Shown here: in pieces, positions 14,601-58,511 of the stretch
Position numbering within the stretch: position 1 is the stretch's first letter
Layout: every line of letters starts with the position of its first letter
Source of the DNA: Liolophura sinensis
Taxonomy: Eukaryota > Mollusca > Polyplacophora > Chitonida > Chitonidae
DNA length: 64,000 bases
NCBI RefSeq assembly: GCF_032854445.1
Contig: NC_088302.1
Span: 52,544,046 to 52,608,045 of the forward strand
Direction of reading: 5' to 3'
Translations under genes and position numbers: made by a program
The notes under the pieces: generated by a model
Seen by the model: the letters and a program-made list of their open reading frames with translations, nothing else
What the model was told of the DNA's origin: nothing
Database searches by the model: none

Positions 14601-17600
14601 GATGTTTGGAAGATAACATTATATCCTACAGAGAAATTATTACTTCTCGCACCTGAAGTATTATCTCATTACATTTATTTGCCTCCAAAAAAGCTTACTT
14701 GTAGTCAAATTTTTAGGTCATTTAAGGTAGACTGTTTTGTTCCATTTAGGTCATCGGACTATGGTTTTGCAGCACAAAGTATATCGAAAATGAGATTTGC
14801 AGTCTTTGGTCGCCTTTTTTTTATTATACAATACCAAAACTGTTAAGGGTTTTATGATCTACTCTATGAGTTGCTGACAAGAGCTGGGTTTAAACAGAAG
14901 ACCTCAATGGTCAGGTATAACTTATGATCAGTCTGAAATAGACAGCAGTGGACCACTTGACTAGCAAGGCAACCACTCCAATCAGCTGCGATATGAACTA
15001 CATGCATTATGAGATCAAGTTAAATTACAGGGCTAGTACTGTAGTGGTGAACATGTATTACCACATGTTGTCAAGGAGCTACCAGTCACACACAACCACA
15101 TATGTACCTTTACTGTAACCCTTGGTTACTACCTGTATGCAGGCAGTACAAGCATCAGGCTCAGAGAGGCACGTATACATGGACCAGATCCAAAACATTG
15201 ACAGAACATTGAATTACTTTGTGCCATGGCCTCAGTTTTGTTGTTTCCTTGGATACGTCTTAGGTGAACAATTAAACAAGAAAAATCCAGATCAAGATTT
15301 CAGTAGTACATGTATGATCTTCAGACAAAAACTGCTTTCAAGTTACGCGCAACTTACAAACGATGAGAGGTTTAGAACATGGCCTTTGCAATAAAGATTT
15401 ACCTATATGCAGGGCTGTATAAATTCGTCACCTCAGTTAACAAATGTCACAGAATGATGGTACATCTACCTCTACACAGGGCTGGATAAATTCATCACCT
15501 CAGTTAACAAATGTCACACATGGACATCTACCTGTATGAAGGGGCTGTATAAATTCATCACCTCAGTTAACAAATGTCACACACAGTACAGCTACCTGTA
15601 TGCTGGGCTGTATAAATTCATCACCTCAGTTAATAAATGTCACACACGGTACATCTACCTCTACGCAGGGTTGTATAAATTCATCACCTCGGATAAAAAA
15701 TGTCACACATGGTACAGCTACCTGTATGCAGGGCTGTATATATTCATCACCTCAGATAACAAATGTCACACATGGACATCTACCTGTAAGCAGGGCTGTA
15801 TAAATTCATCACCTCAGTTAACAAATGTCACACATGGACTTCTACCTGTACGCAGGGCTGTATAAATTCATCACCTCAGTTAACAAATGTCACACACAGT
15901 ACATCTACCTGTACGCTGGGCTGTATAAATTCATCACGTCAGTTAATAAATGTCACACACGATACATCTACCTCTACGCAGGGTTGTATAAATTCATCAC
16001 CTCAGATAAAAAATGTCACACATGGTACATCTACCTGTATGCAGGGCTGTATATATTCATCACCTCAGTTAACAAATGTCACACATGGTACATCTACCTG
16101 TATGCAGGTTTGTATAAATTCATCACCTCAGATAACAAATGTCACACATAGTACATCTACTCTACACACGACTGTATACATTCATCACCTCAGTTAAAAA
16201 ATGTCACAGATGGTACATCTACCTGTATGCAGGTTTGTATAAATTCATCACTTCAGATAAAAAATGTCACACATGGACATCTACCTCTACGCAGAGTTGT
16301 ATAAATTCATCACCTCAGTTAACAAATGTCACACATGGACATCTACCTCTACGTAGGGTTGTATAAATTCATCACCTCAGATAACAAATGTCACTCATGG
16401 ACATCTACCTCTACACAGGGCTGTATAAATTTATCACCTCAGTTCACAAATGTCACACATGGACATGTACCTCTAAACAGGGCTGTATAAATTTATCACC
16501 TCAGTTCACAAATGTCACACATGGACATGTACCTTCCTATAAAATACATTAATTTGTAATTTACATTTGTACATGTATACAGTGGACAAAACTTGACAAA
16601 CACAGGACAACACATTAACTTCTATCAAAATGCAATAAAACCGAGTAGGGCTCAGTTTTTTGACTGTCAAACTGTTATTCAGTTGCTGTGAGATGCAGTG
16701 TATCAGTACATAAAAACAATATAATGCAGCACGCATTGTAAATCTTAACCATAAATGATGTACATAAACTTTAAGTTTAAGGGGCAAGAGCAAAGATTCT
16801 GTTTTATCAGAATCATAACAGACCACTAGACCTCAAAGTAGGCTAAGTCACAAGTCACTTTATGATACAAACAAAACAAGTAGCATACAATGAGCCAATG
16901 AGAGGTGTCAGGTGCTTACATGTTTAAGCATGTTAGATAAATATTTATCTATGCAAGTTTCTCGAAAAAGAAAACAAATACTCACCAGTTTGATTGCTAC
17001 ATGTTCGTTGTTGTACAAGTTTTTACCTGAAAGGATAGCAAAGAGGTAAACATTAACTTTACACATGTTATTGGGTTTCTACTAAACACCAATCTCCTCT
17101 TTTAATAACACTTTTAAAACATGTTCACAAATTAGGCAACATGATAAATTAATCCCAACAAGATTTACTCTACTGAAAACACTGAAGAAATTTGAGAAAG
17201 TGCATGTAATTCCATGTGAAGCCAATATATTGATATTGAATGACTCAAATCTACAAGTACATAATAATTTAAATTACATCATCTGTAGTTTTTATGTTTT
17301 AACACACTGTCCATTCAGTTCAAAGGCTATGCAATCAGGATATACATGTATTTAGACTCCTAGGTATATGTAGGAATCTGAAGAGGGGCCTGTTCAATAA
17401 TGGCATATATCAAAAAAGTTAGAAAGTCAAGTCTCCTCTATAGAAATGTGCTTCACCATCTGAGAAATGCTTATCCCTAGAATGTCTACACCACAGGAAA
17501 GTGCATGTGCACAGTATGAATGTACATGTACTATCAGGCGAATTCCCATGATTTCCCTTGTGACGGAATAAACATTACTTTCATAACTTTCATAAGTCCA

Positions 17601-23734: not shown

Positions 23735-26700
23735 GTGAGATTGAGGTACTTGTAAGATTATCTAGCGTAATATATTGTTCTTGCTAAGTCCAAGGTGCTT
23801 GAGTTTAAGATGACAGGTCTGTTCAAGTTCGACGTGAGGCGGCGCGCTCACTGCCGGCGTAGTGAATAGAAGTCCAAGTCATGAAATGCATCGAATAAAC
23901 TTGACTCTGGCACTAATTTGAATGCACTTTTTGATCAAGTCAATGTCTGGTTTAGGTTAGATCACTTTATAAGCCTTAACTCTATGTGGAATGTCCTCAC
24001 TCGTTGTTGTTGTTTTCGAAGTTGTCATTTCGTGATTCGTGTTTAGTCCCATTTATGTAGGCATCACTAAAAATGCCCTCATTTAAGAAGGAAGCTACAA
24101 CTACTTCTTAGTGCAGTTAGAAGGGAATTCTGGTCAAAGTACACTAGCCTAAAGCTAGCTGGGACACTACTTGGGCCTGCTCCTATACAACATGATCCTG
24201 TGTTGTATAGTTTTGACTTGACACAGAGTCATGTCACCATGTTACATTACGACTGTTCGAAAACCACCTATCTGTCAACAACAACAGCATGCACCCAGGA
24301 TATGACCCAAAACATTGTAACTTCGGTACCTGGGGAAGGCCAAATAGCTGAACTGTTTCAAGCCTTAATTTTGATAAACCCAAGTCTGTGTTCAGATCAT
24401 CATCACACATCACACTGGTGGTCCAAGATACTGTCTAATCACATGTGTGGGTAGGTCAATTTCCTGTTTGTCACCTCCAGCTCGACTACGGACCATTTCA
24501 TTTTCATTGGTGCCATTTGTGTTTCTTTCAGGCGACAAGAAATGGTAACGTGGTAATATCATGGACCGTAGCTGATAGTTTTGATATCTGATTATTATCA
24601 CATTGTAGATGATTGGCAGAATTACTTAAAATGAAATTCTTACACCAGTTACCCCAGATCTTTATTCAGTAGTATCCGTTGCATCTTGTTTGACACTCTC
24701 TGTAAATTCCATCCATAGTTATGCCTGTTTTCAGTTATTTTTTTTATTTACAGCATGAAGGAAATAACATGTTCAATTAATTACCACTGTCAATGAAAAT
24801 AATATGAGCAGTTTTGACCATGCCATAATTCTGCCACAGCTGGTCATTAGAGTGAAGGCTATATATTGAATCATTCCGCACCTAAATTGGTATGGAAAGA
24901 TTGGTTAGTTATAATCAAATGCATGTCATCAAGCTTTGTGACTACCTGTACATGCAAGTGATCATGAATATTATTCTAATGATGTCTATTGTACTCTTGT
25001 CCTTCAGGGAGAAAATTCCCAAAGAGACCAAAGCATCAGGTAATTGTTGAGGCTCGATTTGATGGCGAATTGTTGGCCTCTGATCCAGTCGACCATGTGG
25101 AAGCACCGCAATTTACTCAGGAATTGGCCTGGGAACTGGATAGAAAAGGGTTACAACAACACCGTCTACAAAGGACCTCTATTAAAGTCCAGTGTTATGC
25201 ATTTGACCCTGCCACCTCCTTGAAGGAAGCCATTGGTTATGTTGTATTAGATTTGAGATCTGCTCAAGCCAAGCAGGTACATGCTTTTTTGTTTCGTTTT
25301 TGTTCTGGTATTTATTGTGCGCGGAATTATAGGTATAAAGAGTTTGAAAAGCAATTGCAAGCTTAATTGAGGTTTTAGGTCTTGTAATGTGTTACCACAA
25401 ATGACAGCTTAGGATTAGTAATTCAGTCCAGCCCAAAAAGTGGTAAAAAAGTATGTAGTGTGTTGTTAAGCACTGATCACATAAATACATTAAGGAATAT
25501 GAATTTGGAAACATACTCACTGAGCATGTACTATCACCTTAATGGTTAGATTCACAGTGATAGGCCTAGTACCACTACTGCAATTGGGGGGCCTCCATGG
25601 CAGAAAGGGTTAGCTCGCCAGCAGGGTGCAATTTCCCAGAAGCCTCCCACCAATGCTGTCTCTGTAAGTTCAAGTTCAGCTCATGCTGATTTCTTCTGGC
25701 CATACGTGGGAAGGTCTGCCCGCAAATCTGTGGGTGGCCATGGGTTTCCCCTGGGCTATGCCCGGTTTCCTCCCACTATAATGCTGGCCACTTTTGTATA
25801 AATTAAATATTGTTGAGTACGGCGTAAAACACCAATGAAATAAATAAATAAATAACTTCTGCAACCATGTAGGTGTCTTGTCTTTTGTCTTTGGCATTGT
25901 ATTCCATCAAGGAATTTCCGTAAAAATAACAGTATTTACATTTATTGTGACCATCTTCTCACAAGATGCTAATGTAATGTTAATATTATAATATTAAAGC
26001 ACACATCATTTGACCTAAAATGGTATGAACGTCTGTAGTTTATCTAATCAATTATACCCTAAAACCATGTTCACCTTTGGAGTCACAAATTAGTTTATAT
26101 TGCTGGCATGGTATTTGTTAAGTTTAAGGTAGACCTGTAAGGAAAATCAGTGTAGCTAAATGATTTTAATGTATTGTGATATATTGCCATCACAATAAGA
26201 TAAAACATGTCTGATCTTGGGTGGAGGAGGTGAATCGCCCCTCTTCTGATTTTGAGGTCAGAAGAGCCCGCTCTTTGATTGTAGTGTCTTGTTACAGACA
26301 AACAAATGGTACCCATTGCTACATTCAAAATACCACAAACTTAAGCCGGAGTTGCGCCTGGGATTGTATCTGGATGAGGACAAGCCTGGAGATGAACAGC
26401 CAAGTTTTAGGGCTAAAGAAGCCCCAGCTAGGCCAGGTGAGTAAGAACTGGGAGTTCACCAGATAGATGTGAATAATGACACTCACAACACCTATTTCTC
26501 TGTAAAATCAGCTGTTCAGAGATAATTATCAGCCTAACAACTCTGTCTAGTTCTCTGGCTTTTTCTTGTTTCACAGGAAGGATAGTTACCTTGTTGGGCC
26601 ACAAAGAGCTGATTATCTAAGCTGTTCAAGAACCTTCTGATAATAGACTGAACATTTCACCTTATTTCCTACAGAAAACAACAGATTTCTCAGGTGTACA

Positions 26701-29700: not shown

Positions 29701-32700
29701 ATGCCAAAAAATACGGAAATCAACCTAACAAAACAGACCACAAAAACAGTCTTAAATGACAACTAACAATGATTTCATTGGTCATCATGGATGTAGAATA
29801 GAAAGAACAATTTGCCGAGTCAGTCGATTCTAAAGATTCCAGTCCAGGCTTGTGGAGGTCATGTGCACAACTGCTTCGTTATCCATGGTTTCTGCCTGTG
29901 ACCTCAACAATCCAAATTTTGGATGCACCCAATGTGTTGTGAGTGCACACGGTGATATTGAAAAGAAAAAAAGTCAGGTTTTCTGCATATAACTAATCTG
30001 AAATTAATTGAAACTTACAGGAGTGATCGAAAAAACCAATATCTTCTCAGTCCACACCAGAAATCTGCATGTGCCGCTCTTTTGGAGTGGATTTAATGGC
30101 CAACTTGGTTCTGCAAAGTGCCCACATTAAGAATTGAGTATCAGAAATTGCTGAAAACAGACCTCAACATTTAATTTAGTTGAACTATGGTTATACAACC
30201 TATTGCGATCAAATCACTCAGGATTTATCACTCAGATGATCATGATCAGAGAACCGTTAGCTTTACATTTGTTTGGATTTTTTGGAGCAAAGTCCGTTAG
30301 AAAACGGGGCACGCCACAAAATTGCAGCTTCTCGTTAGCAACGGATTTTAGGTTAAAAATACGAACTCTCCTACGCTCGGCTTCTCGTACTGGATGTATG
30401 CATTGTGGTTACCATACCACAGGGAACCGAGTCACAGAGGACACAGAAAACTTCTTCACCCATTGTCGAGTTAAGAACAACACGAGTAAAAGTGTTAACA
30501 TGTGACATCCATCAGACATTATGAGTTGGATTTATTTGTAATGGAGAAAATGCTTATCGAGAATAGTGGCTGCTTATAACATGCCAGCAGCGATTTTTGC
30601 CTGCATTTGACATGCACGCAAGCATTAAGTTACACCACTGATTGTTGTGGGGTAATCACAGTGTTAGTAAAGTATGCACCACCAGGACTCCTGTCTGATG
30701 AATTCTTGATAGTTATAGGTTTTAATTCAGCTTTTATGTTACATCACAAAACAATCACTATCTGTGAGCTTGTGTTTTCTTATCTACAGTTCCACCTGTG
30801 CTGTGGTGACCAATCTCTGGGCAGTTGTGAAGTGTCTTTGAACCCACTCCTTAAGAAAGGCAGCACAGAAATCTATATGAAACCAGTCTCCATTGAAGGT
30901 TCATTCCAGGTACAGCGTCAATCCATCCGTATACTCCCATATTAAATGTATGACTGTACATGTATCTGTCATTCTATTTATATGGGGCCTCTGTGGCCCA
31001 CTTGGTTAGCGCGCTATCGCAGCGTAATGACCCAGGAGTCTCTCACCAATGCGGTCGCTGTGAGTTCAAGTCCAGCTTATGCTGGCTTCCTCTCCGGCCG
31101 TACGTGGGAAGCTTGGTCAGCAACCTGCGGATGGTTGTGGGTTTCCCTCGGGCTCTGCCTGGTTTCTACCCACCATAATGCTGGCCACCGTCGTATAAGT
31201 GAAATATTCTTGAGTACGGTATAAAACACCAATCAAATAAATAAATAATCTATTTATATGACAACCCGTTGAATGGTTGTTGCCTTAAAGCACATCACAA
31301 GAGTCCACTTTCTCCTAACTGAGGAGATCAGGAAAATGTGTTTATATCCTTAACTCTGCTCATGCACAGGTTTGACCTATACATGTAACATTGTCAGAGA
31401 AATAGTATTACAGTTAATACAGTTTCTGTCAGAAAGGTTAATATACTGTACATCTTTAGCCAGAAATGGTTTTACTCCCAAACTAATGAAGCTGTGTTAA
31501 AACTAACAGCAAATTGAATTAACATATTACGGTTTTATGAAGTTTAGTTTTCATGCAAATTTCTTTCATTAACAGATTTAAAAGCTCTCACAAAGGATCA
31601 TAATCAGTTGCACTTTACAAACTTTAATACGTAGTCACATTGTCACCTGTAAAGTTTGTGACCAGATCCTTGAAGTTAAGTCTTGATTTAGCCCTGGTTA
31701 AGAATGATTAGTTTGTTTTCAGTATCCTCATATTGATTGTAGTGACTATAAGATAAACAAAAATCAACTCAGTTTTGTCCATTTATCACTCAGGATTGTT
31801 GTCATTGGTGACTCAAACACCCTCCAATTCTGGCGTGTCTGTTCTATTATGTTTAGCTCATACCCCCGAACCGCCTGAAGCAGCAGATGGCCCCAGTTGC
31901 CAGTGACCACGCCCCAGTGCTGGGGGTAGCTATAGTCCTCAGGAAAGAGGACCTGGTAAGCTGGAACTAAACACTTAACATATTACTCATATTGGTATAT
32001 CATGTTCAAATATTATAATGACAATTGTATGGGATGAAGTTAAAAGATAAACCACAGTATGTCTGTGTCAAGATGATAATCTTGTCCAACATATGGATTG
32101 ATTGATTGGTGTTTTAATGTCGTGTTCAGGAATTTTTTTTTTCATCCATATCACAACAGTTAGGCTTATGGGCAGAGGAAACCACGTACCTTCACCGGAT
32201 AATGCAGCTGACACAGAATGAACTTGATTCAAATATGAGAATTCATTGGGCAAGGGACTGATATTCGCAGCAAGCTAGTGCTTTAACCAGCTGAGCTATT
32301 AGTTGGTTGTTTTACTCCATATTCAAGAATATTTCATCTATGCAACGCCTGCCTGCATTTTGATGGGAGAATGCTGGGCCGAGTCATTGAAAAATTGAGG
32401 TCCCTCAAGGATATAAAAGTTTGACAAGATACAAATGCATGTAGGTACATACAACTGTCCAAATTTGTGATGAGAGCTTTCTAGCATGTTGAAAGGTTTC
32501 TGTGAAATGTTGGGAAGATGGGGAAATACTACTACTTTTGTGTAATGTTTGCTGCAGTCTGTTTCTGCAGTGCTTCCCAAAATAAAGACTAGCCTGCCCA
32601 TTGAGTTGGTGGAATAGTTTCTGGGTAAATCCCAGTCTTCACATTTGAATGATCTTCACCTACCTTTGATGTTTTTTTTTTTTAATTTTACGTGTTTATT

Positions 32701-35700
32701 ATCTTTGTAATCTGTCATAATGGATAAAATAGGCTATTTCTCTGTCAGACATTACCCCCAGGCAGTCCTGTGAAGGAGACTCCCCAAACACAAATGTCAA
32801 AGATGACGCAGTCTCCTGAGCAGAGGCATTCCTCTCCTAAACAAAGCCCTGTGTCAAGTCCTAAGGAGAAGACGAAGGCTGTAAGGAGCCCTCCACGACC
32901 TCAGCCCAGAGAAACAGACCAGTACTCAGAGGATAAAACAGAAGATGACCTCAGCAGTTTACAGGGAGGCCTGGATAAAGGTAGATAACTCTTCTGGTGG
33001 CTTCTCGTAAGCTAGCCCCCATTTATTGAAGCTGGCTTCTTACATAGTTTTTTAAAGACTTGTGGAAATTATTTTTTACTATTTTTGGTTTCTCTGTCAT
33101 TTTGTCTGGAATTTAGCAGAAGAGGCTGCCAATGCAAAAGAGAAAAAGAAAATCATAGAACCGACAAACAAGGGAGGTTACCCTAAAGCTCAACCCACTG
33201 GATCAGGTAATGTGAAATGTGTTGTTCATTTATATGCTGATAAATTACAACATTTATACCTTGACATTTTTAATGCTTTTTGATGCTTAATATTTATAGA
33301 ATTTTATGGGCATAAGTGGTTCATTGATTATTTTAAAAGTTTTTGAGTAGATAAGAATGTGTTTACATCATTGATTATTGAAAGTAAAATAATATTTCAT
33401 CTGAAGTGGATTTTGCACAAACTACCTCAGAGTTTTTTTCGAAGACTCTGAACTGGTGGACATTTTGTGTTTTTTAATTTTGAGTGAAATATTAGTACAT
33501 GTACAGTGCTAACTTTCATGAAACGTTTTTTATAAATGCTATTACTTTACCCAGATTACTTCAAGTATAAAAGAAAATTGGGTTATAATTTGATTTGTGA
33601 AAATAGAGCTTGGACATTATTTTGTGTTAAACTTATAAAGGACTATGTAAGAATTGTTGAAACTGACAAAAAAGTTTAAATGATGTTGTTTCATTGCAGG
33701 AGTATCAGTAACGGATTCAGAGAGCACCACCCAGCATCACATCTCCATCCCTCCTCAGTCTCATCACTTCAGCTTCTCTCTAGACTTACGCAGTGTCAAT
33801 AATGTTCAAACAACCCACCCCATCAACATCTTCCTCAGGTAAGGGGGAACACATTACAGGCGAGACTGTTAAACCCTACTGGTTTGTCTGACAACAATGT
33901 ATAAAGATTTGATATGTGTGGAGCATACCAGCTTGGCTCTACTGATATATGACAAGTGCAGCAGTTATTTATGCTATACAGGGACTTTTAAAGCTATATA
34001 TTAAATAATGTACTTAAATCTCGTAAGCATGTATTCTTGCATATTCTCTTCAGTTTGTAGAAATGCTATTTTTTTTTCTCAGATTTTTATCCAAGGTATG
34101 TTTGTTTGGCTTTGTTTTTTTTTTTAATTTCTGATCAAGAGCATTTTGTTTTTGGTCAAAGATTCATGTGATTATTTCAGTTGTCATGTGATCATTTCAG
34201 TGGTCATGTGATCAGTTTAGTATTCATGTGACCATGAAAGCGATTACATCATGTGGTACGACATTTTCGACACATGAAAAAGAACACCAGGTTCAGGTTC
34301 TGCCTGCACTGTAGCACCAGAGGCACCAGAGTTTATTACCCCAAGACCACAACAGGATGTGGTCAATGGATGGAGATGAATGTGAAGAGCATATCAAAGT
34401 TCATTACCATGATTTGTACATGTATACAGGAGCAGGTTTTGTTGGACTATCACGATATAGACTACACATCCATACTAAAGTGGAAAAGGCAGGATATCAT
34501 TGCCACAAGTGGCCACATGAATCTGGATTTCATCAAGTTAATAATTAGAAGCTTTTGACAGAAAAAAGTTTTTTTTAAATGAAAACAAAATTTCTTGGAC
34601 AAAGAAAACAATCTTGGATCAGTATGTATGTTGGGGCTATTAACAAAGCGAAACCAGAAAATTTTATGGCAGCAAAATTTACATACTGGAAAAAATATGT
34701 CTTCTTCTTGAATTCAATGATAGGCCTAATTGTAAATTGTATGTCTAAATTGTTTAGTCAAGGTTTTAAGTTTTGAAAAAAAATATTTTCATTTTGGGCA
34801 TTGTATGTACAGACATGATATGTAAGCCATGTTTGATGGTTTGCTGTGTTTTCTCATCTTGGGGACATATCCCTGTTGAGCTCAGCTTGTGTAAGGCCTA
34901 ATTCCTCCACCTTTTCTCATGTAAAAGAGCAACTTTCAATACAATTTATGCATATTTTTAATTTCATTTTGCGGACAACACAACATTGTTTTTTTGGCCA
35001 AGTTCAGGGCTTCACAAAAAGTATAATTTTATCAGTCTACACAGAATAATGCCGTCAAAGTATCCTTAAATAAACACCTTGCAAACATGTGTAAAAGATG
35101 GAAGAATTACTGTAGTTGTTGCTTACTTGTGAGGTATAGATATCCATTTTGCGGGCACATCCCTGTTTTGCCCAGCATGTGTGCGGCTGTTTTTTTTAGC
35201 TGTCATGTATACAAATCCATTTCATGGAGACATCCCTGTTTTGCTCTTTGTGTATAACTGTTTTCTACTTGTCAGGTATACATTCTCATTTTTTGAGAAT
35301 ATCCCTGTTTTGCCAAGCATATATATTACTGTTTCCTTCTTGTCAGGTATACATACCCATTTTGTGGGCACATTCGTGTTTTGGCTAGAATGCGTATTAT
35401 GCGTTTAATGGTATTTTTCAGGTATACCTACCCATTTTGTGGGTACAGTCGGGTTTTGGCTTCCATGTGTATTCTGCGTTCAGTATTTTTCTGGTATACC
35501 TACCCATTTTGTGGGCACATCTGTGTTTTAGATACTTTGTGTAGTATGCATTTGGTAGTTTTCAAGTATTTTGTGGGTACAGTTGTGTTTTGGCTACCAT
35601 GTGTATTATGCGTTTGGTATTTTTCAGGTATACCTACCCATTTTGTGGGTACAGTCGTGTTTTGGCTACCATGTGTATTATGCGTTTGGTATTTTTCTGG

Positions 35701-38700
35701 TATACCTACCCGTTTTGTGGGCACATCTGTGTTTTGGCTACCACGTGTATTATGTGTGTGGTATTTTTCAGGTATACCTACCCATTTTGTGAGCACATCT
35801 GTGTTTTGGCTACCATGTGTATTATGTATTTGGTATTTTTCTGGTATACCTACCCATTTTGTGTGCACATCTGTGTTTTGGCTACCACGTGTATTATGTG
35901 TTTGGTATTTTTCAGGTATACCTACCCATTTTGTGGGCAAATCTGTGTTTTGGCTACCACGTGTATTATGTGTTTGGTATTTTTCAGGTATACCTACCCA
36001 TTTTGTGTGCACATCTGTGTTTTGGCTACTATGTGTATTATGGGTTTGGTATTTTTCAGGTATACCTACCCATTTTTTGTGCACATCTGTGTTTTGGCTA
36101 CTATGTGTATTATGGGTTTGGTATTTTTCAGGTATACCTACCCATTTTTCGGGAGTGCTGCCCCAATCCTGACTCACCCAGCAGTTGAGGCTAGGAGAGG
36201 CTGTGAGGTATTACTGCCACAATCTCTCTGTGTGTTTGACTTTGCATGTACAACACCACAGCTCCAAGAAACATTCTTGAGGTAGGACACATTTCAAAAA
36301 ACATATCTCAAGAAGATTAAATCCCTGTTCACATAGCAGTCATGTGTGATAGTTTACTGTCCATCAAATGAAGAAAAATAAATTACAAAGGAAAGACTAA
36401 TACAGGCCTTTCGCAAGTTCCATGGTTGCAGGTTCCCTGAGTGGATAATTTTTTGTGTAAAGTTTTGAGCAGTGTTCATGTTATTTTACCTTTGTTCTCA
36501 TTTCTAAGATTGTTAGATACATGTATATCTGATTGCTTTCTCAGGGTGCCCCTGCTGGTGGAATTGTGGCACAGAGACAGACAGCTCTCGAAAGATGTCC
36601 TGCTTGGGGCAGCTCGTCTTCCTTTGGGTAGCCTGCTAACTGCTGAGAAGTCAAGAGTTATGGTCAGTTAATATTCAAACACTTTTTGTAGACAGTTGAT
36701 GTTGCAGTCCAGGTTATGACATGGAATAACTTCCTTCAAATCATTAGTTCTGTTGTTTCCTGCATATTTGCCATGTCAATGCGTGTACCTAAAGTCGGTT
36801 TAGTACATGGGTTGATGACGCAAGCACTGCAAACTAGCCTATCAGTTTAGCTGATGTTGTAATGGAAAATGACTCACCCGAAAAACTGTGTGGCCAAGTT
36901 TTTGCTCTACAAAATTATTTGCAGACAGGGTGAATTTGCATCTAGTGTCTAAATTAACTTTCACTAATGTCACTAAGATGCTGTTTTCAGAAACAGTGTT
37001 TTACCTATTGTTACACATGTGATGAGAACTGTCAGAGAAATAGTCCCGTTTGGTGCATGCATGCAGTTTTTTTCGTTAAAAAGGTCTTTGAATTCCATTT
37101 TTCATTCAGTATTTTTTTCGTAAAAATTGTTTGTAATTAAAATCAAAATCTGCTGAACCTTGGATAGTTTCCTTATCTATAAATACATCTAGCTGTAAAA
37201 CAAATAAAGTTTTAGTATGATCAACAGATCTTAACCGGTATATAAATGTAGATGGATCTGTCATTAGCAGAAGGACGCAGGTTCCTCAGGGTGGAGACAG
37301 GTGCACAGTGACAGGGTACCAGTGACGTCTTCTGATGGGTGAGTAAGTAGGACGTGCATGTAGGCCTAGGATAGTGTTAGTGATGCTGGCTTGCTCTCCG
37401 GCTGTACGAGGGAAGCTACATTTGCGCAGGCGTAATATGTTGCAGATGGTTGTGAGTTTCCCCCAGGCTCTGTCGGTTTCCTCCTATCATAATGCTGGCC
37501 TTCATCGTATAAGTGAAATATTCTTGATTACAGCATAAAACACCAATCAAGTAGATAAATTCTGCTGAATTCCACTAGTAACCAGCTCCCGCTAAATCAT
37601 CATGGTTGAAGGCTACATGTATATAAATCCGAATCTCTCCTTTATTGCAGATCTGTTATTAAACGTTACGGAAATACGTCTGTCAAACTTGATCTTGCAA
37701 GCGAGATATCTTAGCAGTTTTCAACCAATCATGTTCATATGTGCACAGTAGTTTGAGGCCAGTCAGATTTTAGTCAATCTACGTAAGAATATAAGGTTGT
37801 CAAACTGGCGGCCATCTGTTCTCACAAAATTGGCTTGAGGTCATGTCAGTAATGTCATGGTTCTTTCCGTCTGTCCGTCATTGTGTGTATGGGGCCTTGC
37901 AAAACTTGAAAAGTCTGGAATTTAAACTTTTCCAGGCCTTGATTTACAAACAGGCTACTGAACCAACCTTAGTATATACATATATAGTTTTGCTGAGATG
38001 ATCATTGTGACTCTTTTTCAGATCTGTTCTTGCGTTAACTTGCATGTGAACCAGTTTAACAGTTATATCTCTCAAACTATTGAAAGTAAATTCATAAGGT
38101 TTTGCAGAGAAGGTCATCTAAAGCTGCAGGGAATATGTAGGGACGAGTGCTACTGCAGTTCTGCGGCTCATGTTTTAAAAGTGAAAGTTTCTCTTACCCT
38201 AAGTTTTTTTGGCATTTATATTTCTTAGCAAGCCATCAACAGTAGCTGAGGTGACATTTGTTTTGGCTTTGGAGGACTGGGGACCCATCAACAGTGAGCA
38301 AATTGTATTAGTCAATGAGGATTCTGAGGTAAGTCTTTACACACAATGAAAAAAGCAAATAATCTTGACAAATCTGACAGAAATGATCAAGTTTGGAAAC
38401 AGGTTAAATCTGCTGCCTAATGCGACTTGAAAGGCGAAAGAAAGCATTTGTTGTCCAGGTAACTACAGCTATGTTGAAAAACGGTTGTCGGGTGCTCATT
38501 TTCTTATTAATTTTATGATTAAGTAACAATAATATTCTTCCTACATGCCACAGGTGTCACAGAATTGCAGAACATTAAATAGGTAAAAAAGATTTCATTT
38601 ATTAGCTCAAATTACAAAGAAAGAAGAGGTACTGTGAGAGGAAAATCAGATGCTGTCAGTGGCAGTGTCCAGTTTAGTTAAAGGTTTTGGCCAGTCATAG

Positions 38701-44700: not shown

Positions 44701-47168
44701 CTGATCACTCGTTATAAACAAGAGGTAAATATCACTAACCTTGTCCTCTGTTGTAAAAACAGTGATTCATGTACATGTATGTACTGTTATTCTAGTCATC
44801 CATTCAACTTTCAGTTTACATAGTGTATTTCTGTTAACTTACAGAAATCAGGAGTTCCCCTTACCTTACCTTATCTGCTTCACAGTTTTCTTTTTTTTTT
44901 TTTACCATGCTGGTACTTGGAGGTATATAAAACAGCGCTTTTCATAAAGTAAATACAAGTGTGAGCCTTTACATACAATCTAAATATAAGTGTGAGCCTT
45001 TAAATACAATCTTAATATAAGTGTGAGCCTTTAAATACAATCTAAATATAAGTGTGAGCCTTTAAATACAATCTAAATATAAGTGTGAACCCTTAAATAC
45101 AATCTTAATATAAATGTGAGCCTTTAAATACAATCTAAATATAAGTGTGAACCCTTAAATACAATCTAAATATAAGTGTGAACCCTTAAATACAATCTTA
45201 ATATAAATATGAGCCTTTAAATACAATCTAAATATAAGTGTGAACCTTTAATCTTGATTCATCTTTTCGGAAAACCTTACACACTTATATGTGTTCAGTT
45301 TATTTTGGGATAGTTTTGCAGTCAAGGTATAAGAGGATTATATCAGCACCATTGCTATAATTCCAGTGTTTCTGTTTTATGTTTCAGTTAGCAGATGCCG
45401 AAAAGAAGTATCACAACCTGGAGAGGGAAATGGCTGTGTTTAGAGAGCAGCAGAGTAACAAACCAGAAGTGCGTCTGCAGTCTGAGATCAATCTGCTTAC
45501 TTTAGAAAAGGTCAGTAAAATTATCTTAACTATATTTAATGTCACTTCAAATGCATGATTTTCATAATGAGTGCTTAAACAGAATATTAAGAGAGAATCT
45601 GTTCAGCCACCCACTGGCACATCAAAGTTTTCACTCAAGTATAATAATGGATCTCAAGGTTTGCTAGAACATGATAGTTCAGTTAAGCTGAGATGCCTCA
45701 TATCATATACCATAAATCATTTAAAATTGAGCAGATCTTAAAATGTGGTACCATCCCAGAGTTTTCAGTAATCTTTATATTAACTTCACATAATGACAGG
45801 CCCTATAGCATGAGACTGGTATAGCTGTATAGTTTGATATATGAAGGCTACCAGTCAATATCTCATGATCTTGGTCATCCTCATGTAACTGCTTGTCATC
45901 CAAAATCTCTTGAAAGCTCACTGTCCTACTAAGCTACCTCAACTCTTCCTCATGTGCCTTAAGGAATGTGACATGCAACTGTCTTAATACCCGTTCGAAA
46001 TTGTTAATGGAAAAGGTCTTCATACGTGTAAAGTGAACATTATTTATATTACGGACTACCAAGAGACTGATGTTCTTCACCAGTGTTGTATTGTTTGACA
46101 CAAACTTTATTTAACATTCTGTTTCTCTGATTGAAGGTTGAACTGGAGCGGAAATTGGACTCCATTACTAAATCTAAGATCCACTACAAGCAGCAGTGGG
46201 GGAGAGCTCTGAAGGAGCTGGCTCGTCTGAAGCAGAAGGAGCAGGCTGCAGCCAGGGCACAGCTGAAACGACAACAACAGGAGCTGGAGCACATGAGGCT
46301 GAGATACCTGGCTGCTGAGGAGAAGGAGGTGATGAAGGGGGAGAAGGAAGAGCTGGAGCATATCAAGAACGAACTCAACAGGTAACATCTCGTGGTGGGG
46401 ATGCATAGGTGGCTGTTAACGAATTAACAGTGATATGAATAGTAGGAAGTGAGACAGTGAACTTTAACCAAATTGGTTGTGAGTAGGGAATGTCAGTGTG
46501 AACTAAGTAAGTTAGATGTTTTAAAAACTTTCTTGGTGTGAGTCAAGGCATGAATTTCCAGATGGATATGGAGGTGTTAAATCCATTACCTAAATTTTCA
46601 CAAATTTGCAAGGACGTCCATGCGTTTATGATGGAAAAATACTATTTACCACATGACTGAATTTGTTTCTGTCTGCCATGGCTACTGTACTGTTGATTTA
46701 TTTTATAATTTATTCCATTGATGTTAAATTCCGTAACTAAAAACTTTTCACTTATATGATGGCTGTCAGGTTTATTAGTAGAGGAAACCAGAGTAAACAC
46801 CTTGCCTGGTAGCAAACAAAAATTGCAGCCCAACCAGCCTTATTCAAGCACCTATAATGTGGAAGTTGAGCAATAAGAAAGCTTGATTTAATTATGTTGT
46901 TTTTTAACAACATTTTGTTTGTCATTGTTGCTGTAGGCTACGTAAGTTAGAGGAAGAGAAGCAGGCAGAGCCTGATGTTACAGGTGGAGGGCAGGTGAAT
47001 GGGATAAAGTCCTTCAGCCTGGATGGAAGCATAGATGAGCACATCACGCGGCTCATAGAGGAGCGGGACACTTTACTGAAGACTGGCGTGTACACTAGCC
47101 AGGACAGGATTATTGCAGAGTTAGACAGGCAGATACGGGAGGCTATTGCCACGAAGTCTGGCAGCTAG
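23683..47168 (+). CDS. CEP120: Centrosomal protein of 120 kDa (complete, 22 coding exons)
   Basis: CEP120 is a daughter-centriole-enriched protein needed for centriole elongation and ciliogenesis. Exons join to 3042 nt, or 1013 residues (human 986): 23683-23734, 25008-25276, 26298-26436, 26982-27142, 28470-28667, 30790-30909, 31857-31955, 32749-32980, 33117-33206, 33700-33838, 36132-36281, 36545-36662, 37271-37338, 38229-38328, 41777-41938, 42653-42742, 43075-43167, 44281-44393, 44676-44724, 45388-45510, 46137-46381, 46937-47168. Phases agree at every junction. Order: C2A (about 1-150; [20 protein letters not shown]), C2B (about 170-345; [10 protein letters not shown]), a Ser/Pro/Lys linker (about 347-455), C2C (about 460-645; [20 protein letters not shown]) and a long coiled coil (about 680-940; [16 protein letters not shown]). 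It ends with the conserved [14 protein letters not shown]. An in-frame TGA lies 12 nt before the ATG. Exon 9 could instead begin at 33120. The exon 11 acceptor is repeated upstream (see 35272-36131). Confidence 0.96.
25008..25276 (+). CDS. CEP120: CEP120 exon 2
   Basis: Core of C2A, residues 18-107: [20 protein letters not shown] through [10 protein letters not shown]. Acceptor CCTTCAG, donor GTACAT. Confidence 0.95.
25587..25855 (+). mobile_element. tRNA-derived SINE in CEP120 intron 2
   Basis: Near full length, with a head containing box-B-like TAAGTTCAAGTTCAG, the core GTGGGAAGGTCTGCC...GGTTTCCTCCCACTATAAT and an (AATA)n tail. It is diverged, so older than the 30984 copy. Confidence 0.9.
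26298..26436 (+). CDS. CEP120: CEP120 exon 3
   Basis: End of C2A, residues 108-153: [20 protein letters not shown] onward. Acceptor TTACAG, donor GTGAGT. Confidence 0.94.
26724..26955 (+). mobile_element. Second SINE family copy in CEP120 intron 3
   Basis: Box B GTGAGTTCAAACCCGGC is followed by a different middle. The 3' part (TTTCTCCACCCATAAA, GGCGTAAATGACAAATTCTT, then AAATAAATAA) is a distant relative of the common SINE core. It lies just before the exon 4 acceptor. Confidence 0.75.
26982..27142 (+). CDS. CEP120: CEP120 exon 4
   Basis: Start of C2B, residues 154-207, ending [15 protein letters not shown]. Acceptor TTTCAG, donor GTAGGT. Confidence 0.94.
28100..28205. repeat. Degenerate short tandem repeat
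   Basis: Four to five diverged copies of a 20-30 bp unit around TTGAACACCTGGTACAC in CEP120 intron 4. Confidence 0.5.
28470..28667 (+). CDS. CEP120: CEP120 exon 5
   Basis: C2B, residues 208-273, including [20 protein letters not shown] and [11 protein letters not shown]. Acceptor TTTGTAG, donor GTAGAC. Confidence 0.94.
29371..30190. repeat. Inverted-repeat-bounded segment in CEP120 intron 5
   Basis: GGTCTGTTGTTTTCAACAAT at 29395 is mirrored by the reverse complement of GGTCTGTTTTCAGCAATTTC ending near 30167, and similarity extends outward through an AATTAAAT-rich flank. The arrangement fits a non-autonomous DNA element. No target duplication was established and the family is unknown. Confidence 0.45.
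30790..30909 (+). CDS. CEP120: CEP120 exon 6
   Basis: C2B, residues 274-313: [20 protein letters not shown] onward to EGSFQ. Acceptor CTACAG, donor GTACAG. Confidence 0.94.
30984..31248 (+). mobile_element. Full-length SINE with target-site duplication, CEP120 intron 6
   Basis: Starts GGGGCCTCTGTGGCCCACTT (box A region), then box B GTGAGTTCAAGTCC, the core and a tail AATCAAATAAATAAATAA. It is flanked by an exact 11-bp duplication TCTATTTATAT (30973-30983 and 31249-31259), so the insertion is recent. Confidence 0.95.
31857..31955 (+). CDS. CEP120: CEP120 exon 7
   Basis: Residues 314-346, from [14 protein letters not shown] to VLRKEDL. It matches the end of C2B in CEP120. Acceptor TTTAG, donor GTAAGC. 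Confidence 0.9.
32092..32312 (-). mobile_element. Diverged SINE, minus orientation, CEP120 intron 7
   Basis: Left end GATTGGTGTTTTAATGTCGT is the reverse of a SINE tail. The right end ACCAGCTGAGCTATTAG reads as a tRNA box A on the minus strand. The middle differs from the common family. Confidence 0.65.
32749..32980 (+). CDS. CEP120: CEP120 exon 8
   Basis: Ser/Pro/Lys/Gln-rich, presumably disordered linker, residues 347-423. It is poorly conserved between species, so the boundaries rest on splice sites and phase. Confidence 0.8.
33117..33206 (+). CDS. CEP120: CEP120 exon 9
   Basis: Lys-rich linker, residues 424-453. The acceptor is a NAGNAG pair (TAGCAG), so one codon may be included or skipped by using 33117 or 33120. 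Confidence 0.82.
33700..33838 (+). CDS. CEP120: CEP120 exon 10
   Basis: Start of C2C, residues 454-499, with [20 protein letters not shown] then IFLR across the phase-2 junction. Acceptor TTGCAG, donor GTAAGG. Confidence 0.93.
34163..34236. repeat. 21-bp short tandem repeat
   Basis: Four imperfect copies of a unit like TCATGTGATCATTTCAGTGG in CEP120 intron 10. Confidence 0.85.
35272..36131 (+). repeat. 72-bp minisatellite made of CEP120 exon 11 acceptor units
   Basis: Units are head to tail, exactly 72 bp apart from 35628 onward. Each has GTATTTTTCAG|GTATACC, then CTACCCATTTTGTGGGCAC, then GTGTTTTGGCTACC and ATGTGTATTATG. The bar marks the acceptor equivalent to the exon 11 acceptor at 36131/36132. 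CAG is kept before positions 35628, 35772, 35916, 35988 and 36060, and replaced by CTG before 35494, 35700 and 35844. One unit near 35566 is shortened and shifts the frame of everything to its left. Older, diverged units continue left at about 35130-35345, with a trace near 34850. From 35590 the exon 11 frame is open through the array into the exon. Confidence 0.95.
36132..36281 (+). CDS. CEP120: CEP120 exon 11 (3' splice site repeated upstream)
   Basis: C2C, residues 500-549: [13 protein letters not shown] through [10 protein letters not shown] to ETFLR. The homologous vertebrate segment begins at the same point, which fixes 36132 as the ancestral acceptor. The preceding 72-bp units repeat this acceptor and about eight codons. 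Confidence 0.94.
36545..36662 (+). CDS. CEP120: CEP120 exon 12
   Basis: C2C, residues 550-589: [20 protein letters not shown] to EKSRVM. Acceptor TCTCAG, donor GTCAGT. Confidence 0.93.
37271..37338 (+). CDS. CEP120: CEP120 exon 13
   Basis: Residues 590-611: [20 protein letters not shown] onward. The WRQ..S..VPV pattern matches CEP120. Acceptor TTAGCAG, donor GTGAGT. Confidence 0.88.
37379..37562 (+). mobile_element. 5'-truncated SINE in CEP120 intron 13
   Basis: Core GATGCTGGCTTGCTCTCCGG through GTATAAGTGAAATATTCTTG and a short tail. The tRNA head is missing. Confidence 0.85.
38229..38328 (+). CDS. CEP120: CEP120 exon 14
   Basis: End of C2C, residues 612-645: [20 protein letters not shown] to NEDSE. 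Acceptor TTCTTAG, donor GTAAGT. Confidence 0.92.
39026..39253 (+). other. Coding-like open segment in CEP120 intron 14
   Basis: A 75-codon frame without a starting Met, in a locally GC-richer patch. It has globular-looking composition ([20 protein letters not shown], then [20 protein letters not shown]). The antisense frame (39022-39228) begins with a signal-peptide-like stretch. I recognise neither. It may be a decayed insertion. Confidence 0.3.
41777..41938 (+). CDS. CEP120: CEP120 exon 15
   Basis: Residues 646-699: a low-complexity linker, then the conserved [20 protein letters not shown] leading into the coiled coil. Acceptor TTCACAG, donor GTATGT. Confidence 0.94.
42247..42416 (-). mobile_element. 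SINE, minus orientation, CEP120 intron 15
   Basis: TTTATTTATTTGATTAGTGT tail at the left, then core GGCGGGAGGAAATCGCCCAG and GAGCCCGGGGGAAACCCAGG. The tRNA head is missing. Confidence 0.85.
42653..42742 (+). CDS. CEP120: CEP120 exon 16
   Basis: Coiled coil, residues 700-729: [20 protein letters not shown]. Acceptor TTTGCAG, donor GTAAGT. Confidence 0.94.
43075..43167 (+). CDS. CEP120: CEP120 exon 17
   Basis: Coiled coil, residues 730-760: [20 protein letters not shown] onward. Acceptor TCACCAG, donor GTAAGC. Confidence 0.92.
43590..43670 (+). mobile_element. Fragment of the second SINE family, CEP120 intron 17
   Basis: TTAAGTTCAATTCCAGGC followed by GGACAGGGAATCTTCAAGAT resembles the head and middle of the 26724 element. 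Confidence 0.5.
44281..44393 (+). CDS. CEP120: CEP120 exon 18
   Basis: Coiled coil, residues 761-797: [20 protein letters not shown] to HQVEMER. Acceptor CCCACAG, donor GTACAG. Confidence 0.93.
44676..44724 (+). CDS. CEP120: CEP120 exon 19
   Basis: A 49-nt coiled-coil exon, residues 798-814: [16 protein letters not shown]. Acceptor TTTCAG, donor GTAAAT. Confidence 0.91.
44951..45250. repeat. 31-bp tandem repeat, about 9-10 copies
   Basis: Units of AAATACAATCTAAATATAAG plus TGTGAGCCTTT, with alternating CTAAATA/CTTAATA and GAGCC/GAACCC variants. It fills half of CEP120 intron 19. Confidence 0.95.
45388..45510 (+). CDS. CEP120: CEP120 exon 20
   Basis: Coiled coil, residues 815-855, including [20 protein letters not shown], nearly invariant in CEP120. 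Acceptor GTTTCAG, donor GTCAGT. Confidence 0.95.
46137..46381 (+). CDS. CEP120: CEP120 exon 21
   Basis: Coiled coil, residues 856-936: [20 protein letters not shown] and [13 protein letters not shown]. Acceptor TTGAAG, donor GTAACA. Confidence 0.95.
46693..46834 (-). mobile_element. Diverged SINE fragment, CEP120 intron 21
   Basis: ATTTATTCCATTGATGTTAA, TTTCACTTATATGATGGCTG and AGTAGAGGAAACCAGAG recall the SINE tail and core in reverse. It is strongly diverged. Confidence 0.5.
46937..47168 (+). CDS. CEP120: CEP120 exon 22 (last coding exon)
   Basis: Residues 937-1013 and stop: LRKLEEEKQ, then [20 protein letters not shown] and [14 protein letters not shown]. The tail of this exon is copied downstream at 47233-48250. 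Confidence 0.95.
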
Positions 47169-47450: not shown

Positions 47451-48180
47451 TGATGAACAGCAGATCTGACAAGCTGTTATTTGTCAGTCTAGACAGGACC
47501 CGTGATGAACTGTGCCAGCAGATCTGACAAGCGGTTATGTGTCAGTCTAGACAGGACCCGTGATGAGCTGTGCCAGCAGATCTGACAGGCTGTTATGTGT
47601 CAGTCTAGACAGGACCTGTGATGAACTGTGCCAGCAGATCTGACAAGCTGTTATGTGCCAGTATAGACAGGACCCGTGATGAGCTGTGCCAGCAGATCTG
47701 ACAGGCTGTTATGTGTCAGTCTAGACAGGACCCGTGATGAACTGTGCCAGCAGATCTGACAAGCTGTTATGTGCCAGTATAGACAGGACCCGTGATGAGC
47801 CGTGCCAGCAGATCTGACAAGCTGTTATGTGTCAGTCTAGACAGGACCCGTGATGAGCTGTGCCAGCAGATCTGACAGGCTGTTATGTGTCAGTCTAGAC
47901 AGGACTCGTGATGAGCTGTGCCAGCAGATCTGACAAGCTGTTATGTGTCAGTCTAGACAGGACCCGTGATGAGCTGTGCCAGCAGATCTGACAGGCTGTT
48001 ATGTGTCAGTCTAGACAGGACCCGTGATGAGCTGTGCCAGCAGATCTGACAGGCTGATACGTGTCAGTCTAGACAGGACCCGTGATGAACTGTGCCAGCA
48101 GATCTGACAGGCTGTTATGTGTCAGTCTAGACAGGACCCGTGATGAACAGTGCCAGCAGATCTGACAGGCTGTTACGTGC
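47451..48180 (+). repeat. 58-bp minisatellite after the CEP120 stop, about 12 copies
   Basis: Units contain GTCAGTCTAGACAGGACCCG, TGATGAGCTGTGCCAGCAGA and TCTGACAGGCTGTTATGT. The unit reads DRTRDELCQQI where exon 22 reads [11 protein letters not shown], so it seems seeded by that exon. Copies differ by a few bases (GTGTCAGTCT or GTGCCAGTAT; GAACTG or GAGCTG). Confidence 0.93.
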
Positions 48181-52106: not shown

Positions 52107-54679
52107 TCATTTATAATGGTAGAAGTCTGGGATACCATCAGCAAAGATAGTGACTGGATCGTTATAAAAATTTCGGAAGTTTTTCTCACCCGGGTGACCT
52201 TTATACGGCACCCATATGGGACAATGGCCGTCCGAGGAACAGTTGTTGTGCCAGGCCAGCATGTAAGCAATCCTCGGGGCGTTCGGGCGGGGTTTGTGGA
52301 GTCCTTTACCCTTCAGGGGGTTTAACACGTTAGTAAGCCAGAAATCAGGGTGAGTATTGATACCATTCTCCTGGAAACCAACTTCAGTCAGGGCCAGGAT
52401 CTTGTTCCGTTCCTCTGCATGGTCTACCAACATTCTGTCCGCGAAGTTCTGAAATCGCGTTTGATTGATTACATTGGAATAATCATCTACTCCCCAGATG
52501 TCCACGTAGTTATCCCCAGAGTAGGTCTTCATGTAAGACGTTACCCAGGAGTCTGTGTTAAGATCGGTGTACCCAGCGTTTGGGGGAGTAGGCGTACAGG
52601 AAGTTGTGAACGTCCTTGGTGTTCCGTAAATAGTCCACGGTATACCACCATATTTTAATGAAATCGTCAGGCGTGTTGTGAGCTTTGTTTCCTTGACCCC
52701 AGAAGAACCACTTTCCGTTATTCTCATGGAAAGGACGAAATATAATCGGTATAAGTCTTTCATGGTGGTCGCGTAAACTGTGCGCAATATCGGCGATTCC
52801 GTCCAGTCGGTGACGCCAAACGTCGTTGTTCCGCCCTCCGGGCAGATGACGCCGCAGCGTATGTTCTACGCCTTTGTGGTCTTCGTCCACTTTGACAGGC
52901 CCATGAGTGATCGGATTGGACATATGCATAGAGAATGTTATCACAGATCCCCGGGCGTAGGCAAGTTTAGTAAGAGTCTTCAGAGGGGTAATAATCTTGT
53001 CTTGTAGGTCATAAAGATCGAGTGCAATCACGGCTGGGTAATGACCAGTAACACCTTTGACGTCACATAGCTCGTCATATTTGTTTTCTTTGGCAATTTC
53101 AACCTATGGACACAAAAAAGGCCTTCATGGCTATGTGAAGTTTCTATAATTAATATTATATATTAGATATGGACACTTGCTATTTGTATTTTTTATTAGA
53201 GTCAATACATCTTCCAAGATAAAGACACGTTTGTTTCTTTCAGTGCACATCTTATGATAAATTTACTTTTGACGCCTTTTTCGACGCCTATTTGTTGTTT
53301 CAGACATTTGATTTCTAACAATCCGGGAGGATTGACCCTATATACATAGACATACACACTTAATGTTGAAAATCACCTGTTCAGGGAGGTCGCTTTTCTG
53401 TCTGACCGTGTTGATAGATTCAGAATGTCTAAAGTCGTAGAAACATCGTATACATTCAGTGATTTTTTGTTACCCAGTGTCATGCCTCAGTGAGGCTGAC
53501 GTGTGATGTAGTAAAAGTTAACCAATCTAAATCAATTTTGTTTCCCTTAATGCATAATGTAGAGATCACCTAAAATGAAGGCGCTGTTTATAAGACATCA
53601 ATTTATGGCATATATCATTTGTATTTATATTTTAGAAATATGTTTGAAGTTTTGTGTATTAATGTCTTTGGATATGTTTTGGTTGTTTATGTACATGTGT
53701 ATTTCCAGAATTAAGTCTAACCTTGTTTATGTCCAGTGAATTGGACATATGTACCAAAATACGGTTTCGAATGGCCAACAAACAGGAAATAAAAATATAG
53801 ACTATTTTGGAAGGCAACTTGCTCTCAGTCATTCTTTACAGTGCAAATATATTTTTTCCGTTTTGTATATAAGAAACGGTCGCTTTGAGTTCAAGTCTAG
53901 CTCATGCTGGCTTCCTCTCCGGCCGTACGTGGGAAGGTTTGGCAGCCACCTGCGGATGATCGTGGGTTTCCCCCGGGCCCTGCCCGGTTTCCACCCACCA
54001 AAATGCTTGCTGCCGTCGTATACAACGAGTACGGCGTGAAAACACAAGTCACACATCAAACATCTGTATGAGAAAAGCATTGCTCTGATGCAACAGTGGC
54101 ATCTGCATATATTTTGTACACATATTAATGAAACGCGGTATTTCTTGATTTGGACCAAAATAGCTGTGGGGCAGAGAAATATATTATGTTTCTGTTATTG
54201 ATTATGTTATTGACACAAACTATAAGAGACTTGCTCTGTCATTCCATTAGAAACCTTTGTTTTCGATGTAGGGGGCTATTGCGTTGTCCATGTACAATAT
54301 TATATTGCAATAACATAGTCTATTCTGAGATGAATCAAAACGTACCTTACTTTAAATTTAACAGATTTTACCCTAATTTTTAGTTGTAACAAATATCCAT
54401 TGTAATCAACTTACTGTGTATTCCCATCCTTTGGTGTTTGGATTTTGAATTGGGGAAAGTTTGATAGGGACTGTGTCCTCCTTGAGCTCCATGTAGGGTG
54501 GCTTTTTGCATCCCGAATAAGATACGATGTGGATCTTTGGCCAAAGAGTGCAGCTTGTAAAACAAGTTGGCCGTCTCCTTGTTTGCATGTGTGTCAACGG
54601 GCCCCACTTCCGACAGGTGTTTAATACTGACGTACATAACCACCATCGTTGTCAGCACCGTTTTAAATGACCAATCCAT
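52107..54679 (-). CDS. GH26 beta-mannanase-like secreted enzyme, two exons, two apparent frame breaks
   Basis: GH26 enzymes hydrolyse beta-1,4-mannan chains. Exon 1 (54415-54679) begins MDWSFKTVLTTMVVMYVS, a signal-peptide-like start, then ANLFYKLHSLAKDPHRILFG as in the GH26 N-terminus. Exon 2 (52107-53103) has CDVKGVTGHYPAVIALDLYD, then RPFHENNGKWFFWG with the acid/base Glu, then YVDIWGVDDYS, then ILALTEVGF with the nucleophile Glu, and ends PDFYHYK. The splice sites GTAAGT and CCATAG are good. The total is about 420 residues, a normal size. The frame changes twice: inside exon 1 near an A5 run (about 54515) and inside exon 2 near a C5 run (about 52575, after LYAYSP). Both catalytic Glu remain. 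Sequencing error at homopolymers or a young pseudogene are both possible. The gene lies convergent to CEP120. GH26 is mainly bacterial and fungal, so ancient transfer is an inference. Confidence 0.85.
53877..54046 (+). mobile_element. SINE inside the GH26 intron
   Basis: GAGTTCAAGTCTAGCTCATG, GTACGTGGGAAGGTTTGGCA and CCCCGGGCCCTGCCCGG, in plus orientation (antisense to the host gene). The first part of the tRNA head and the tail are missing. Confidence 0.88.
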
Positions 54680-57185: not shown

Positions 57186-58511
57186 CATTCATTTGTCATC
57201 ACTGTAGCAGACAAGGCTCCTAATAATGTCATCTTTATTTACAAGAATTATTATTATCAAATTCTTGTTCAAGAGCTATGTGCATCTACAACGACATCCA
57301 CGTATTCTGCTACTACATGTACTCTGGAGGAACTATTTAACAAACACAAAACCTTTCTTAAAGAAAGGCGCATAAATATACCTACCCGTCACACAGAAAT
57401 ACCACAACTTTACTGGATTCCTAAAATGCATAAATCCCCATACAAGGCTCGATTTATTGCAGGTTCAAGAAGCTGTACCACCAAACTCTTGTCAACCCTA
57501 CTTACGAGAGCGTTACAAGAAGTAAAGTCATTTTGGAATAAGTATTGTTGTGCCATAACAAAAAATTCAGGTGTCAACTGCATGTGGATTCTTAACAACT
57601 CCAAACGTCTTACAGGAGAACTCGATGCTCATATGCATATACCGTACAAAGACGTATCCACATGGGATTTCTCTACTCTCTATGCTACGATTCCTCACAA
57701 AGATCTTATTGAAAGAATATCGTCGTTAATTGTCTCGGTATTTACTAAAACAGGTCACCGTTACATTAACGTCAGAAGCAATAAGGCTTTCTTTAGTTCT
57801 ACTCTTTATAAAGGTTACCACTCATGGGATGTTACATTATTTATTGAATTACTTGAATTTCTCATTAATAACATCTATGTGAAATTCGGAGATACCATTT
57901 ACCAACTGTGCATAGGTATTCCAGTGGGTACCAATTGTGCGCCTCTTTTGGCAGACCTACACCTGTTTTCATATGAATGCGACTATGTGCAGAAATTACT
58001 TAAAAGTAATATCTTTAAAGCTCGATCCTTTTCATTTACCAAGCGGTATATTGATGATCTACTGGCGTTAAATAATCCCCATATTGCTGAAGCGGTGAGG
58101 GAAATCTATCCGCCTTCATTGGATTTAAAGGAGACAACAGATAGTCCTGATGGTACATCTTATTTGGATCTATATCTGTACAAAGACGAACAAGGTCTCC
58201 TTTCACGCCGCCTTTACGACAAAAGAGATAATTTCAATTTTGATATTGTAAATTATCCTTATTTAGACAGCAATATACCAAAGGGTCCTGCGTATGGCGT
58301 ATACATATCTCGCCTTGTAGCATTTGTCAGATCTTGCGTTAATTGTGATGACTTTAATCTGCGTCACAAGTTGCTAGTTCAAAAACTAGTTTGTCAAGGA
58401 TACTCCATCAAACGCCTTCATTCTAAGTTTCTCAAATTTTACAATGAGTATAACACTCTCGTTGGCAGGTATGGACAGAGCGTTCAGAATCTCTGGCGAT
58501 CTGCATTGTGA
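57186..58511 (+). mobile_element. Penelope-like reverse transcriptase (441-codon open frame, 5' truncated)
   Basis: The open frame starts FVITVADKAPNNVIFIY and the first Met is at 57426. RT motifs in order are LYWIPKMHKSPYKARFIAGS, WDFSTLYATIPHKDL, the palm segment GIPVGTNCAPLLADL, the catalytic RYIDDLLALNN (YIDD box) and SYLDLYLYKDEQG, then YDKRDNFNF. The PKMHK and LY.TIPH signatures favour a Penelope-like element over a LINE or an LTR polymerase. No GIY-YIG or other endonuclease domain is visible in or after the frame. Plain open reading over this length suggests a fairly young or still constrained copy. Confidence 0.75.

Follow-up and report, generated by a model that had tools for sequence, protein, structure and literature searches.

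In the chiton Liolophura sinensis, CEP120 carries a real 72-bp minisatellite where intron 10 meets exon 11, and each unit of it combines the tail of the intron with the first bases of the exon. The array has the structural features of the amphioxus minisatellites called mirages, and is known here from one sequence, the 64,000-nucleotide stretch of DNA that was analysed (the window; the CEP120 exons and repeat units described below lie on its + strand). Its copies are probably silent intronic decoys, with the donor at 33838 joined to the acceptor at 36132 in productive splicing. A first-pass annotation of the same DNA had described a minisatellite whose unit contains a 3' splice site together with the opening codons of an exon for the third C2 domain of CEP120, and this description was confirmed by TRF, by the register of the units and by a profile made from them. 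Two readings had been offered there, a copy-number-tunable switch of protein length and a splice-decoy array, and the latter proved the better of the two.

The protein joined from the exons of the window matches L. sinensis CEP120 isoform X3 (P0001) at 94%, a value that reflects the absence of some exons from the joined query. When P0001 was mapped onto the window, exact translation was obtained at 20 of 21 introns; the remaining one, the phase 2 intron 10 (33839–36131), was read directly, with the donor CTCAG/GTAAGG at 33838 and the acceptor TTTTTCAG/GTATACC at 36132 (the slash marks the junction). Exon 10 (33700–33838) has its acceptor at 33700 and ends in ...IFL-AG at the donor CAG/GTAAGG; exon 11 (36132–36281, 150 bases) starts at the true acceptor 36132 and has its first ~22 bases in common with the array units; exon 12 (36545–36662) was placed by the P0001 mapping. 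From R500 on, across exon 11, P0001 is identical to the translation of the window. The match assigns the window to L. sinensis or a very near relative, and tells against an amphioxus host, which the mirage literature had suggested. The third C2 domain matches the solved CEP120 structures 6ewp and 6flk, and P0001 matches the Pfam family PF12416 (Cep120 protein), with no Pfam family found for exon 11 alone or for the 230-residue ORF of the array. An Rfam search returned no matches at gathering scores within 33600–36800.

TRF reports a 72-bp period over 35343–36148, with 11.3 copies and an 87% match. Cut at the AG/GT register, the array yields 14 units (35134–36131), and the start of exon 11 continues this register. 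A profile made from the 14 units, whose own matches are thus by construction, was run with nhmmer and also found sequences absent from it, namely the exon 11 start (36132–36153) in exact register (E 0.0033) and, at 34853–34895, what is probably left of a very old unit (E 0.0013). Seven older units, starting at 35134, 35206, 35276, 35347, 35422, 35494 and 35566, occupy 35134–35627, the last of them measuring 62 bp only, and seven young in-register units of 72 bp fill 35628–36131. Each unit consists of ~50 bases of the tail of intron 10, with polypyrimidine tract and AG, followed by ~22 bases of exon 11. The earlier account of the unit as polypyrimidine tract, CAG and about eight exon codons holds for its content, the exonic share being reduced to those ~22 bases (7 codons); likewise, an array is present at 35590–36285 as had been proposed, with its 5' limit shifted ~450 bp further 5'. 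The motif CAG/GTATACC occurs at 35628, 35772, 35916, 35988, 36060 and 36132, CAG standing just before each position. Elsewhere the triplet before the unit start is CTG (35494, 35700, 35844), CAA (35566) or TCA (35206), and AG precedes the older units 35134, 35276, 35347 and 35422, all four out of frame with exon 11. Altogether, AG is found before 9 of 14 unit starts, with GT after it in all nine, and is missing from five; 5/9 AG-bearing copies are in frame with exon 11 and 4/9 are out of frame.

Tandem arrays were also observed elsewhere in the window. Upstream of CEP120, a 63-bp array of 18 copies (15400–16534) has a period that is a multiple of three and is crossed by long ORFs. A 31-bp array of 9.7 copies (44950–45251) is intronic in CEP120, between 44724 and 45388, and touches no exon, and a 58-bp array of 12.4 copies with 94% match (47458–48179) begins ~290 bp past the CEP120 stop codon. 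In addition, similar translated stretches at ~25550–25798, 30946–31221, 37347–37535 and 53740–54036, compared by eye, may belong to a dispersed repeat, conceivably a SINE. The 441-residue open frame at 57186–58508 matched no Pfam family; inspected by eye, it resembles a reverse transcriptase, with a YIDDL-like motif.

No stop interrupts the exon 11 frame over 35545–36282, and the CAG acceptors pointed out by the first-pass annotation at 36060, 35988, 35916, 35772 and 35628 are all present, in frame, with potential gains of 24, 48, 72, 120 and 168 residues. An in-frame length switch, in which alternative acceptors insert 24–168 residues into the third C2 domain, could draw on this open frame and on the strength of the acceptors. 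The claim that acceptors lie in frame is borne out for five copies, and does not extend to the four additional AG copies (35134, 35276, 35347, 35422), whose use would shift the frame, nor to the 5/14 units that lack AG. Openness itself was expected from composition and was rejected as evidence of function: in dinucleotide shuffles of the unit, which preserve its scarcity of GA and AA, a given frame stays open in 75–79% of cases (P 0.75–0.79) and all three frames in 28–34%. The last unit contains no GA, no AA and a single AG dinucleotide, and for this reason can hardly contain a stop. The open frame noted earlier is thus real, and unremarkable.

Substitutions among the seven young units give no sign of purifying selection on the array frame, at the low power of only 14 variable sites (the 62-bp unit 35566 was excluded from these codon tests and from the comparison of old and young units below). 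Variable sites fall on codon positions 1/2/3 as 5/5/4, and synonymous, nonsynonymous and stop changes number 3/13/0 against 3.04/12.22/0.74 expected without constraint; the other two frames, with 5/11/0 and 3/12/1, are near expectation as well. At this low power, the unit substitutions look neutral, with no coding selection visible.

Protein searches point in the same direction. P0001 uses 36132, and its junction sequence contains no insert; isoforms X1 and X2 could sit in its 3-member cluster at 90% identity. Isoforms with X numbers are predictions, and may have been built from protein homology rather than from reads. None of the 120 CEP120 proteins listed (of 1079 matches) contains the YxYP[FH] motif twice, and the inserted part of the hypothetical +168 isoform, used as a query without positive control, found nothing among 788 candidates at E<=10. 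With the 234-residue ORF as query, 10 proteins were found among 6511 candidates, and the best alignment of every one lies over exon 11. These searches covered length-bounded candidates in a database clustered at 90% identity, where a slightly longer isoform could hide in the P0001 cluster. For P0123, P0124, P0126 and P0127 the alignment extends upstream by at most 38 residues, with 44–54% identity overall, an extension taken for probable hydrophobic read-through of their own introns.

The structure model adds a further consideration. In P0001, modelled with a mean pLDDT of 75.2, the junction residue R500 lies inside a predicted strand (495–502), and pLDDT is 90 for the block 491–500 and 75 for 501–510; the alignment and model took in 48 of the 120 CEP120 proteins fetched. 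An insert at this point would fall within the strand, yet its consequences for folding are uncertain, as the insert supplies its own copy of YTYPF and could preserve the strand. Considering a protein model that lacks the insert, the lack of array-bearing proteins in the searches, a substitution pattern that appears neutral at low power, the frame-shifting copies and the position of the junction, the tunable length switch suggested earlier is unsupported and must be regarded as quite improbable.

The array is polarised, with the oldest copies at its 5' end and the youngest against exon 11. Identity between adjacent units climbs from 0.68–0.74 at the 5' end to 0.99 beside the exon (Spearman 0.90, p 2.6e-5). 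Measured against the last unit, identity climbs in the same direction (Spearman 0.98), from a minimum of 65%; neighbouring units are not independent, so p values here serve as guides. In the six old units starting at 35134–35494, mismatches with the consensus number 16/132 in the exonic part and 81/295 in the rest (Fisher p 0.0004); in the seven young units, the corresponding counts are 6/154 and 19/350 (p 0.66). The lower divergence of the exonic part in old units would be expected if the templates copied had been an exon held under coding constraint and an intron free to drift. Both the gradient and the conservation of the exonic part would be explained most simply by growth at the edge of the exon. 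The ordered gradient also bears on whether the array was produced by the assembly. Assemblies do err in tandem arrays, and a single haplotype was seen here; misassembly does not, however, create non-identical units in an ordered series of divergence reaching down to 65% identity, which makes an artefact very improbable. The assembly may nevertheless have miscounted the youngest units.

The position of intron 10 seems to be older than the array. Exon 10 is also represented in two of the ten ORF-search matches, P0124 and P0127, and in both the ORF reads across a short in-frame intron that sits, as judged by eye, at this very point of CEP120, between FLR and YTYPFFG (23–24 codons by hand count). 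Given this short intron in both, birth of intron 10 by AGGT duplication was considered unlikely. We infer that a segment comprising ~50 bases of the intron tail and ~22 bases of exon 11 was duplicated in tandem repeatedly, that new copies would arise at the exon-proximal edge, and that older ones would be displaced 5' into the pre-existing intron. The copies would then have been kept as silent intronic decoys, probably in all tissues, under normal splicing from 33838 to 36132.

How the splicing machinery would distinguish the true acceptor from its copies is a genuine question in such an arrangement. The acceptors 36060 and 36132 agree at 72/72 bases from -54 to +18. In a matrix trained on 20 other acceptors of the CEP120 gene itself, both score 15.27, and 35916 and 35988 both score 15.11; of the 99 AGs in 33860–36129, none but 36060 scores as high as the true site. 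Since 36060 is locally identical to 36132, the latter must be selected by features other than the local sequence. The most probable of these is exon definition, through the 150-base exon and its downstream donor, which would pick 36132 over 36060. Equal local signals nonetheless speak against complete silence, and some use of 36060 would not be surprising. Among the seven young units, 2/30 sites vary in the splice-site core versus 12/42 elsewhere (p 0.03), a weak result in that the limits of the core were picked after the alignment had been viewed.

Another way of tolerating the copies would be recursive splicing, in which AG/GTATAC copies act as both acceptor and donor, so that an early splice is corrected onward and the mRNA remains unchanged. 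AG/GT indeed occurs at nine of the 14 upstream unit starts and at the true acceptor, a juxtaposition of acceptor and donor like that described for ratchet points in the accessible text of PMC8605326. As a donor, CAG/GTATAC scores 7.05 in a 20-donor matrix, within the leave-one-out range of the gene's own donors (2.43–11.51), and of 207 GT sites in intron 10 and exon 11 only 11 score at least 7.05, nine of them being CAG/GTATAC copies, the true exon start included. The motif deviates from GTAAGT at +4 to +6, however, and regenerated introns would measure 72 bases or small multiples of this; moreover, the true exon start has the identical donor motif, so that the end of the ladder would be unmarked. 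Such recursive correction is considered unlikely, and silent decoys remain the preferred reading.

The original mirage paper is reportedly that of Canestro in 2002, known here through the papers that cite it. According to the accessible text of later reports, mirages are tandem duplications of an exon-intron boundary, found in amphioxus Adh3 and in the globins BflGb6 and BflGb9 (PMC3087553), with PGBD5 and troponin C also named as members (PMC3087553, PMC3902484). Unit lengths are given as 10–72 bp for Adh3 and 150–160 bp for BflGb6; many units contain AG/GT, and Adh3 data together with globin RT-PCR suggested regular splicing (PMC3087553). In lancelet PGBD5, repeats of 60 and 108 bp are described across splice sites (PMC3902484), and length polymorphism and somatic instability are reported for mirages in the text available. 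The chiton array resembles these systems in a unit that spans the exon-intron boundary, with the exon start in register with the profile, in the presence of a splice signal in many, though not all, units (9/14 AG/GT), and in a length of 72 bp that falls within the range of tens to ~160 bp. It differs in its host, a chiton and not a cephalochordate, and in a unit whose length is divisible by three and whose young copies preserve the exon frame, a point not discussed in the accessible text on mirages.

Comparable boundary repeats have been described in human duplicated genes, where internal tandem repeats lie at exon-intron boundaries, as in the chiton, and may permit alternative splicing; the accessible text counts 27 intron modifications (PMC2812944). 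These differ in belonging to recent primate segmental duplications, and in that alternative transcripts are supported for 66% of the intron modifications, whereas none was seen for the chiton in protein searches. In Cryptococcus, as far as the available text goes, introns were gained through DNA repeat expansion (PMC2395259); there too, the growth of a tandem repeat multiplies splice signals in a gene, but whole introns were gained, whereas one old intron was enlarged in the chiton. Recursive splice sites share the AG/GT juxtaposition (PMC8605326, accessible text), and differ in that the chiton's candidate sites lie within a tandem minisatellite and have a GTATAC donor. With the amphioxus mirages (PMC3087553, PMC3902484) and the human boundary repeats (PMC2812944) in the literature, the first-pass statement that no similar case had been described does not stand. 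For molluscs, no boundary array was found in a literature search with few queries on molluscs or Liolophura and thin coverage of subscription journals. The accessible text of a hemocyanin intron paper mentions no minisatellite (PMC7931591), and that on amphioxus huntingtin reports tandem repeat elements in scaffolds and no boundary arrays (PMC2206037).

Altogether, the CEP120 array extends mirage-like boundary minisatellites, reported from amphioxus in the text available, to a mollusc. It provides a natural competition test, in which acceptors are identical over 72 bases and only one yields the normal protein, and its graded units resemble layered deposits that document the changes of a 3' splice site through time. 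An improbable but far-reaching possibility is that the array would work as a ladder of recursive splice sites that corrects its own premature splices, so that the gene could bear an ever longer series of perfect decoys. If so, this would account for the survival of boundary minisatellites in unrelated animals, and tolerated arrays at 3' boundaries should favour exons that start with GT.
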